DNA of 64,000 bases from an uncultured bacterium (GTDB taxonomy: Bacteria; Cyanobacteriota; Vampirovibrionia; Gastranaerophilales; Gastranaerophilaceae), in contig CACYTP010000001.1 of NCBI GenBank assembly GCA_902777385.1, positions 124,001 to 188,000 of the forward strand. The letters are read 5' to 3'. The notes beneath the pieces are model-generated. The model was not told the origin of the DNA and did not search any database. It was given only the letters and a program-made list of their open reading frames with translations. Within the stretch, counting starts at the first letter, position 1. Each line of letters starts with the position of its first letter. The position numbers and the translations under genes are program-made. Shown here piece by piece: positions 7,829 to 27,669 of this stretch.

Positions 7829-8146
7829 TCAATTTACCATAGACAAAATCACTTTATAAATATTTTGTAAATTTTTATCATCCGATTTTTCAAGAATATT
7901 GTTTATTTTATCTATTATGATTTCTCTTGATTGCAAATGTTCTGTTTTAAAAAATTCTGTATATTCAATGCCAAGTGCGATTGCAAATTTCTCTATTAAA
8001 TCAGCTTTTGGAAAACTCCGACCAGTTTCGATATGACTGATATGTTTTGGGTCAATACCGCTTAATTCAGCAAGTTGATATTGGGTAATACCCTTTTTAC
8101 TTCTTAATTCTTTTAGTCTTAATCCAAAATCCTTTTTTATATTCAT
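7829..8146 (-). CDS. XRE-family HTH regulator (pilin module 1)
   Basis: 105 residues. Residues about 8-62 form a classical Cro/CI HTH (LRSKKGITQYQLAELSGIDPKHISHIETGRSFP). The C-terminal ~40 residues are helical and end NNILEKSDD...IYKVILSMVN. The same length and a similar C-terminal tail occur in the XRE protein at 27352, and both genes are divergent from a pseudopilin gene across about 160 bp. A regulator of the neighbouring pilin gene is the natural reading, but no binding site is proven. Confidence 0.9.
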   Translation of the reverse strand: MNIKKDFGLRLKELRSKKGITQYQLAELSGIDPKHISHIETGRSFPKADLIEKFAIALGIEYTEFFKTEHLQSREIIIDKINNILEKSDDKNLQNIYKVILSMVN

Positions 8147-8264: not shown

Positions 8265-8304
8265 TTAGAATAATATGTTCTTAATAAGGAATATCGGAGG
8301 ATTT

Positions 8305-9000
8305 ATGTATAAAAAATTTGCTTTTACTCTTGCAGAAGTTTTGATAACCCTTGGTATAATCGGAGTTGTTGCAGCAATGACATTACCGACACTTATACAA
8401 AATTACAGAAAACATATTGTTGAAACAAGATTGGCAAAATTTTATTCTACCATAAATCAGGCAATAAAACTTGCCGAAGTTGAATATGGGGATAAAAAAG
8501 TTTGGAGTAATGTAGGACATGGATATGTCACTGATGAAAATGATGAACCGACTAATGAGTCAATTCCGCTTGCATGGGTAAACAAGTATTTAAAACCTTA
8601 TTTGAACGGAGCAGAGGTTTCTGTTACAACTAATGGCAATGCTTTTATAAAATTTTCAGATGGAAGTGCAGCAGTGTTTTCTAATCAAGGAATACAATTT
8701 TGGCCTGAAAGCAAGGATTTTGTTGATTTGACTACCGCAGCTGAATTAAAAAAGGTACAAGGTTATAAAACTTTTGCTTTTTTATTAGTTCCTTATGATT
8801 GTAGTGAAAATTATAAATACCATTGTGATAAAGGAGTTGAACCATATGCCTACAGTTTGGCAAATGATGATGAAGAATCTATAAGAAATCATGCCATAAT
8901 GGGCTGTAATACAAACCCGAGTCACTCTGCTGCCTTTTGTACAAAACTAATACAAATGAACGGATGGAAGATACCGAAAGATTATCCGCATAAATTTTGA
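8305..9000 (+). CDS. Type IV pilin-like protein (pseudopilin)
   Basis: 231 residues starting at the ATG at 8305, which has GGAGG 5 nt upstream; an ATG at 8275 is in frame but unsupported. The short leader MYKKFA precedes FTLAEVLITLGIIGVVAAMT, a class III prepilin signal with Glu at mature position 5 and a hydrophobic helix. The globular part has four or more cysteines in the C-terminal third (YDCSENYKYHCDKG, MGCNT, AFCTK), likely disulfide bonded. It should be processed by a prepilin peptidase and act in type IV pili or a type II secretion-like system. Its regulator candidate is the divergent XRE gene. Confidence 0.85.
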   Translation: MYKKFAFTLAEVLITLGIIGVVAAMTLPTLIQNYRKHIVETRLAKFYSTINQAIKLAEVEYGDKKVWSNVGHGYVTDENDEPTNESIPLAWVNKYLKPYLNGAEVSVTTNGNAFIKFSDGSAAVFSNQGIQFWPESKDFVDLTTAAELKKVQGYKTFAFLLVPYDCSENYKYHCDKGVEPYAYSLANDDEESIRNHAIMGCNTNPSHSAAFCTKLIQMNGWKIPKDYPHKF

Positions 9001-26294: not shown

Positions 26295-27191
26295 TTACCA
26301 CGGGTAATCGCTCTTAATCTGCCAACCGTCATTAATTATTTTTTCAGAACACAGCAGACCACGTCTACCCTTTATACAAGCACTGTCATAAACAGCATTT
26401 GTGTAGTAAGGAACAACTTTTCCGTTTCGCAGTAAATTAAACGCAAAAACATCTTTTCCAAGTTGATTAGGATTTTTATCAGAGCCATTAATATCAATCC
26501 AAAACGCTACTTTCCCGTTCGTATCATCCCAAGTCCATCCGTTGCTTGATATTGCAAAACAACTACCATCATTTAATTTCCACCAATAAGTTACACCTGC
26601 CCAGAAATTAAAATTTTTGCCACCCAGCATTTTATAAGGTTTTGGGTTATCATTAGGAGCACACATGTACAAATTTGACTCGTCAGCTCTATGACCACGT
26701 TCAACAAAATTTAAATGCTTGCTTATTTCCTCAGCGAACATACCTTGGTCAAAATAATTTTTATGGTCAAATTTTTGATGCACAAACGGCATTGAAGAAA
26801 CTTCCAATCCCTCATACTCAGCCATCATTGCTGATACTGCCATTTGCATAATAGCATAACTTCTTTTAAGTTGAGATACTGTTTGGGCTTTTTGATAATT
26901 TTGCATTAACGCAGGCAATGTCATAGCGGCAACTACACCGATTATGCCAAGTGTGATTAAGACCTCGGCAAGGGTAAACGCAGCACGACGAGGCGTTGAG
27001 GACTGAGTAACGTGCGTAGCACCCTCTGCAAGCGTAAATGCACTCTTCCGCCCATACAATACGTCATGCCAAACTTTACAAAGCAAATCAATTAAGTGTA
27101 GTTGATTTGTGTGAGTATGTACGCAGGACTGTTTCGGCATCTGACCAGTATTACTTGCTGTGACTTCTTTTCGGTTGCTTTCAACAAACAT
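26295..27191 (-). CDS. Pseudopilin with long N-terminal extension and duplicated FTLAE
   Basis: 298 residues. A GGAGG five nt upstream fixes the start at 27191, so the protein has about 72 residues before the pilin helix AFTLAEVLITLGIIGVVAAMT. The extension contains a second, incomplete prepilin-like motif, KSAFTLAEGATHV, about 17 residues before the real one (RRAAFTLAEVLI). The first copy is not followed by a hydrophobic helix. The globular domain is Trp-rich (FNFWAGVTYWWK, SSNGWTWDD) with a C-terminal cysteine cluster. Normal class III leaders are under 30 residues, so processing is uncertain. Divergent from an XRE gene as in module 1. Confidence 0.85.
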   Translation of the reverse strand: MFVESNRKEVTASNTGQMPKQSCVHTHTNQLHLIDLLCKVWHDVLYGRKSAFTLAEGATHVTQSSTPRRAAFTLAEVLITLGIIGVVAAMTLPALMQNYQKAQTVSQLKRSYAIMQMAVSAMMAEYEGLEVSSMPFVHQKFDHKNYFDQGMFAEEISKHLNFVERGHRADESNLYMCAPNDNPKPYKMLGGKNFNFWAGVTYWWKLNDGSCFAISSNGWTWDDTNGKVAFWIDINGSDKNPNQLGKDVFAFNLLRNGKVVPYYTNAVYDSACIKGRRGLLCSEKIINDGWQIKSDYPW

Positions 27192-27253
27192 ATTATCCTC
27201 CGGTTAATATCTTAAATATTATATTCTAATGCAAAATAAGGCGTTTTACATAT

Positions 27254-27282
27254 ATTATAACATATAAAACATTGTTATTCAA
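27254..27282 (-). promoter_or_regulatory. Pseudopilin promoter, module 2
   Basis: On the minus strand TTGAAT (27277-27282), 17-bp spacer, TATAAT (27254-27259). Around it GTTTTA (27243-27248) and TAAAAC (27265-27270) form an imperfect inverted repeat. The ATATTGAA...ATGTTTTA.ATG.TATAAT core matches the promoter at 8236-8264, with the same spacer length. Confidence 0.6.
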
Positions 27283-27351: not shown

Positions 27352-27669
27352 ATGGAAGATTTAAAAATATTATTTGGTAAACGAGTAAAAAAATTTAGGT
27401 TAAAAAATAAATTTTCTCAGGAGGAACTTGCAGAAAAAGTTGGTATAGCACTAAATAATATGGGGAAAATTGAAAGAGGAGAGAGTTTTGTAACAGCATC
27501 TACCCTTGAAAAATTATCGCAAGCCTTAAATATTGAAATTGAAGAGTTGTTTTGTTTCAATGAATATAAATCAATTAACGAAATGAAAAAAGAATTAAGT
27601 ACTATTTTGCAAAATGATGATAATATTTGTTTACTATATAAAATATATAAAATGGTTATTGATAATTAA
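27352..27669 (+). CDS. XRE-family HTH regulator (pilin module 2)
   Basis: 105 residues, the same length as the XRE protein at 7829. HTH at about residues 10-62 (FRLKNKFSQEELAEKVGIALNNMGKIERGESF). The C-terminal STILQNDD...LYKIYKMVIDN tail parallels NNILEKSDD...IYKVILSMVN in the other copy, so they are paralogues along the full length. Divergent from a pseudopilin gene by 160 bp. Probable local regulator of that gene. Confidence 0.9.
   Translation: MEDLKILFGKRVKKFRLKNKFSQEELAEKVGIALNNMGKIERGESFVTASTLEKLSQALNIEIEELFCFNEYKSINEMKKELSTILQNDDNICLLYKIYKMVIDN

Follow-up and report, generated by a model that had tools for sequence, protein, structure and literature searches.

Homopolymer contingency loci, the basis of phase variation, are known from Neisseria and Campylobacter, and in the pilE/pilS pilin antigenic variation of Neisseria, many pilin paralogues share segments out of step. 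Translated repeats are represented by the Rickettsia palindromic elements (RPE), which are described in a review (PMC10969869) as dispersed, about 150 bp long and placed in frame in many unrelated genes. Class III leaders of prepilins are characterized in a review (PMC4471445) as hydrophilic, cytoplasmic, 6-26 residues long, ending in Gly in bacteria and removed by prepilin peptidase. Each of the three ingredients (selfish repeats in frame, homopolymer contingency loci, prepilin leaders) is known on its own; their combination was not found in the open-licence PMC literature.

The locus described here lies in a 64,000-nt stretch of the genome of an uncultured Gastranaerophilaceae bacterium (the window) and encodes a pilin-like preprotein of 298 aa (26295..27191, (-) strand). 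In this open frame, only the ATG is preceded by a Shine-Dalgarno match of at least 5 nt (GGAGG at 27197..27201, (-), spacing 5 nt), found by sequence reading and a start-site scan, in line with the well-supported start proposed in the first-pass annotation. A motif scan also detected a promoter-like TTGAAT-17-TATAAT with TG before the second hexamer (27254..27282, (-)), but such sites around the gene showed no excess (10 found, 8.0 expected from shuffles). The first-pass annotation had placed the true pilin helix about 72 residues into the protein, behind a copy of the processing motif lacking a hydrophobic helix, and both points held: 71 codons separate the ATG from the second FTLAE, and this second motif alone was scored by Pfam N_methyl (residues 68-91, 24.8 bits, cut-off 21.2) and NCBIfam TIGR02532 (residues 70-92, 19, cut-off 16.3). 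GspG, ComGE and other equivalogs of the T2SS pseudopilin and competence pilin subfamilies stayed far under their cut-offs, and "pilin-like" is the limit of what these profile scores allow.

The structure was modeled from a 29-sequence alignment, with the target as row 1 and mature paralogues from its own genome as the others; the mature N-terminus FTLAEVLITLGIIGVVAA was invariant throughout. The model predicted a long helix (residues 74-125) followed by a beta-rich globular domain in the mature part (26298..26978, (-)), together with one helix (residues 29-46) in a leader of mostly low confidence. For the globular part, no PDB match was obtained at E<=0.001, and a few pilins occurred among the insignificant matches.

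The leader occupies 26979..27191 (-), as delimited by frame analysis and alignment, and has no stop in frame, with one and five in the two other frames. The true FTLAE codons at the start of the pilin helix (26964..26978, (-)) were located by motif search, profiles and the structure model, and the predicted cut falls immediately before them. Exactly 60 bp upstream and in frame, a codon-degenerate motif search found the decoy FTLAE (27024..27038, (-)), which opens the sequence FTLAEGATHV. The window contained three codon-degenerate FTLAE runs where 0.04 would be expected, the third belonging to another pilin at 8323. The target resembles type IV pilin-like preproteins with a class III signal peptide, as outlined in PMC4471445, in its FTLAEVLITLGIIG helix with Glu5, its prepilin-type motif, its hydrophilic leader and the presence of a peptidase in the genome (one match). 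It differs from them in the decoy and in a leader of 71 residues that ends in Ala before Phe, outside the Gly-ending yardstick of 6-26 residues in the review; the leader is therefore unusually long, as had been suggested.

The best explanation, to which we assign a probability of about two thirds, is that the target gene is translated into a pilin-like preprotein with a 71-residue leader, an in-frame mosaic of dispersed DNA repeats. Its decoy would be the front of a 60-bp unit (FTLAEGATHVTQSSTPRRAA, 26979..27038, (-), defined by motif search and paralogue comparison), whose core GGTGCTACGCACGTAG would belong to a repeat spread in one family of the Gastranaerophilales. Placement of this core directly behind the pilin's own FTLAE codons would make the motif occur twice. 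The first FTLAE would neither enter the membrane nor be cut, because no hydrophobic helix follows it, and prepilin peptidase would cut RRAA|FTLAEVLI and discard the leader. Repeats in frame would probably be tolerated there and accumulate cheaply because the leader is removed; it might hold almost any soluble sequence as long as the frame stayed open and the cut site readable. Since the leader is thrown away, decoy motifs would survive yet decay while repeats pile up in frame. Leader DNA shared in this way would recombine among paralogues. On this reading, the decoy itself is a relic.

FTLAEGATHV or close forms were found at 14 places in the target genome (reversed-pattern control, 0). In ten pilin genes, the unit lay exactly 60 bp before FTLAEV and in frame; most of the 58 pilins were without it. 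One unit-bearing pilin (L014, G000:C1:5850-6005) had its mature part reduced to 38 residues and is an internal-deletion remnant. In public genome records, a degenerate pattern gave at least 109 stretches, 80 of which were shown as loci. The named titles among the matches listed were Candidatus Gastranaerophilales, Melainabacteria and Cyanobacteria, with the exception of one MAG labelled Muribaculaceae; its FTLAEGATHV pilins (L138 and L146, JAMPCZ01) are probably mis-binned or mislabelled. The comparison of FTLAEGATHV proteins in relatives, proposed in the first-pass annotation, confirmed the spacing: among the matches listed (84 in 80 loci), the distance to FTLAEV was exactly 20 residues in 71, and with tandem units (two or three) it was 40 or 60 in others. 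Among these matches, decoys degenerated to FNLVKG, FTHAEA and FALAEG, while FTLAEV was retained.

The core was nearly invariant as DNA, free third codon positions included. In the codon table of the matches listed (81 rows, three cut rows having been dropped from 84), the third positions of GGT GCT ACG CAC GTA were fixed in 80/81, 81/81, 77/81, 77/81 and 80/81 rows, respectively, whereas the FTLAE codons directly upstream used all four bases at free positions. To judge from this table, selection on the protein does not account for the conservation of the core; a site at the DNA or RNA level, or copying of the same DNA, does. The core carries the palindrome GCTACG-CA-CGTAGC. An exact genome search placed the target's own copy, GGTGCTACGCACGT, at 27010..27023 (-) (G000:C1:151010-151023). 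It ends in GTTA and not GTAG, which counts against the core-repeat reading, and GTT replaced GTA in 4 of the 10 units of the target genome, that of the target among them.

The 15-mer GGTGCTACGCACGTA was present in 32 of the 117 genomes of the order, with up to 86 copies (reversed control, 0). Within the order, it was confined to its own family (32/100 genomes vs 0/17 of other families), and a draw across the phylum gave 24/62 own-family genomes against 0/84 others. A total of 90 core copies from six genomes was read (G104, 27 of 55; G064, 34 of 86; G031, 19 of 19; G079, 4 of 4; G100, 3 of 3; G107, 3 of 8). FTLAEV followed within 620 nt in 37 of them, and 35 of these 37 were in frame and open; the other 53 had no FTLAEV within that distance. 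The dispersed core thus adjoins pilins almost only in frame. In the target genome, the exact core was found in pilin leaders only, so its status as a dispersed repeat rests on the relatives. The core resembles RPE as a dispersed repeat in frame in protein genes (the 35/37 pilin-adjacent copies, with 53/90 copies elsewhere). However, here short modules gather in one spot, namely the cleavable leader of a single gene family, and a 16-bp core is common to different genera, instead of a palindrome of about 150 bp with a conserved peptide. It was flanked by lineage-specific tails, the palindrome being restricted to the core. Tandem intergenic arrays of 60 bp and 80 bp headed by GGTGCTACGCACGTA were observed in G031 and G079 (L308-L317).

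Several known kinds of element were considered for the core and set aside. A REP element with RAYT was rejected, since no Y1 transposase was found in G000 (the target genome), G064, G104, G007 and G112. The four viral contigs with the 16-mer had no pilin after it and were taken as chance matches, which argues against phage origin, and a DNA uptake sequence is unlikely given copy numbers per genome of 0 to 86 and a pilin-only distribution in the target genome. As for an empty-site ortholog within the genus, a match at E<=1e-60 was obtained in 1 of 13 genomes, which was the target's own.

The target genome (2.32 Mb, 37 contigs) gave 74 matches to the target protein, and its loci supplied 64 open frames containing a pilin-like motif. 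Across 13 genomes of the genus, first-look pilin-like candidates ranged from 4 to 177 per genome (e.g., G043 vs G066, G118 and G120). L002, L003 and L004 were the paralogues closest to the mature target. Counting the target, three of the four genes had the unit, the exception being L004. Among the 10 carriers, the 45-nt unit was 87% identical between genes, whereas 328 nt of the mature gene reached 64%. In a quick tree built from 58 mature domains (four short rows dropped), the unit required 8 changes (shuffled mean 9.4) and the module marked by CGCAATGACAT or CGCAATGATAT required 20 (18.7 when shuffled). The presence of a poly-G run, with contig-end pilins lacking upstream sequence scored as poly-G-less, required 15 changes against 19.4, and 9 of 300 shuffles were as low. 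The unit and the CGCAATGACAT/CGCAATGATAT module are therefore scattered on the tree about as by chance, while poly-G tracks descent in part. The earlier proposal of recombination among pilin genes agrees with this scatter of the ten carriers. The accompanying proposal of a cassette swapping N-termini is not supported: the disposable leader moves and the mature N-terminus is constant. A cassette dedicated to pilins is likewise contradicted by the relatives, where the unit's core is also dispersed between genes, away from pilins.

From nucleotide 21 on, the target leader was shared with the leader of the poly-G paralogue L007 (78% over 187 nt), and it aligned partly with the leaders of L002, L008, L006 and L065. 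A 62-nt module of poly-G-gene leaders had 39 matches in the target genome, by coordinates most of them in pilin leaders and a few elsewhere. Leaders of at least 30 codons after poly-G starts (n = 49, five genomes) were open in the pilin frame in 43 cases, compared with 0 and 1 for the two alternative frames, and the 6 remaining leaders were not open. In 3362 codons, they contained 21 stops in the pilin frame, and 213 and 315 in the others. The leader frame is thus maintained despite the DNA being made up of shared repeats.

Runs of at least nine G numbered 35 in the target genome. A pilin domain followed 27 of them, 5 were cut by contig ends in pilin-type leaders, 2 preceded a decayed pilin leader or its remains and 1 was unrelated. 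This last, in L417 (G000:C14:30519-32219), was the only poly-G run outside a pilin context; it is in frame in a gene for a secreted-type protein. Poly-G runs of 8-13 directly after an SD-supported ATG were found at many pilin genes, in G000 (such as L067, L082 and L036) and in G049, G051, G031 and G126 (together L348-L407). Starts of the type SD-ATG-poly-G were detected in 13 of the 79 family genomes, with a maximum of 68 (G126), and the reversed control gave 0. In five genomes, 83 such starts were read, and FTLAEV followed within 620 nt in 69; the other 14 included 9 of the 12 from G126, most of them cut by contig ends. Only 6 of the 69 were in frame and open, against 23 expected from equal frames, the loci being non-independent through paralogy and many genomes being metagenome assemblies, in which homopolymer lengths are consensus values. 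The natural reading of these paralogues, the target excluded, would be phase variation with most genes OFF. They resemble contingency loci in that many surface-type genes have poly-G just behind the ATG and are mostly out of frame, but differ in that nearly all runs belong to one pilin family and only paralogues carry them: no G run was found in the 800 nt ahead of the target FTLAEV. The runs may instead serve programmed frameshifting or transcript slippage, as the frame offsets within one genome were strongly skewed to one OFF frame; however, paralogy by itself may produce such a skew.

Divergently to the target, an HTH_3 regulator gene of 105 aa (27352..27669, (+)) was identified from its ORF and Pfam match. 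Divergent small genes of two families were located near 15 of the 27 non-poly-G pilins of the target genome with enough upstream sequence, and near 0 of 29 poly-G pilins (Fisher p=1e-6). The second family was HTH-like by eye, with no Pfam match at E<=0.01. The same arrangement was seen elsewhere in the window, where a divergent HTH-type gene (7829-8146, (-)) accompanies a second pilin (8275-9000, (+)) with the short leader MYKKFA before FTLAEV. By its sequence context, the target has the appearance of a gene with a fixed start and a paired regulator that would have acquired a leader of the poly-G class.

This combination of fixed start and regulator with a leader common to a poly-G gene could also point to leader switching, in which GGTGCTACGCACGTAG would be a crossover site at which leader, start and control region (poly-G or fixed-start class) are traded between pilin genes through a recombinase or homologous recombination, as a regulatory system. 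The near-invariance of the palindrome-bearing core at free codon positions would suit such a role, as would leader modules and mature domains being out of step; in pilE/pilS, by comparison, it is the mature domain, and here the leader, that is shared out of step, with an own start for each gene. We consider switching unlikely, as the core was mostly intergenic in several genomes and missing from most genomes of the family, and neither a recombinase linked to leader movement nor a mixed leader-pilin junction was seen.

Plain tandem duplication, decidedly unlikely in our estimate, would produce the 60 bp by slippage or unequal crossing-over within a pilin gene and spread it by gene duplication, with no outside element. 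The period of exactly 60 bp and the units in twos or threes are what it would leave. FTLAE pairs within one gene, however, were no closer than pairs between genes (13.6 vs 13.8 of 18), which also led to the rejection of target-site duplication. Carriers of the unit are scattered over the tree of mature domains, and the core was found far from pilins too. Moreover, FTLAE stood ahead of the in-frame core in only 2 of 25 copies in G064, leaving 23 of 25 pilins with a core and no preceding FTLAE; the corresponding counts were 4 of 4 in G104 and 2 of 3 in G107. No duplicated flank was found at the intergenic core copies of G104; some core contexts in G064 and G079 resemble duplications by eye.

A role of the core as a small-RNA or protein target controlling pilin genes, placed in leaders because transcription is required, would agree with conservation at the nucleotide level and with its restriction to pilin leaders in the target genome. 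Such a binding site is nevertheless highly unlikely, as intergenic copies were unrelated to pilins and only 10 of the 58 target-genome pilins carry the unit. Four units showed no fold excess (z -0.06 to 1.27) and no Rfam family exceeded its gathering score, with four sub-threshold matches, and an RNA element was rejected on these grounds. An untranslated leader with the true start downstream near RRAAFTLAE, though it would bring the leader towards the known 6-26 residues (PMC4471445), is scarcely credible: SD stands at the upstream ATG only, the nearest in-frame start before the true helix is a TTG at residue 45 with no ATG, GTG or TTG between it and the helix, so that the decoy (residues 52-56) would be translated from any plausible start, and SD-ATG starts 24 and 33 codons before FTLAEV in L015 and L018 would place the decoy in the translated part there too.

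Under the preferred reading, a leader made of dispersed repeats kept in frame, the cut-off leader would be an unusual site in which translated repeats are carried at small cost. A broader picture, which we regard as speculative, is a genome-wide pilin display system in gut-type Gastranaerophilales. It would comprise dozens of mostly-OFF poly-G pilin-like genes and fixed-start genes with their own small divergent regulators. The disposable leader would serve as a repeat harbour and, through the core, as a joint re-assorting control regions, and the target would combine a fixed start and its regulator with a leader of the poly-G class. If the poly-G starts switch, they would form a phasome comprising dozens of pilin genes in uncultured gut-type bacteria, and such a phasome, if true, would bear on how these bacteria meet host and phage.
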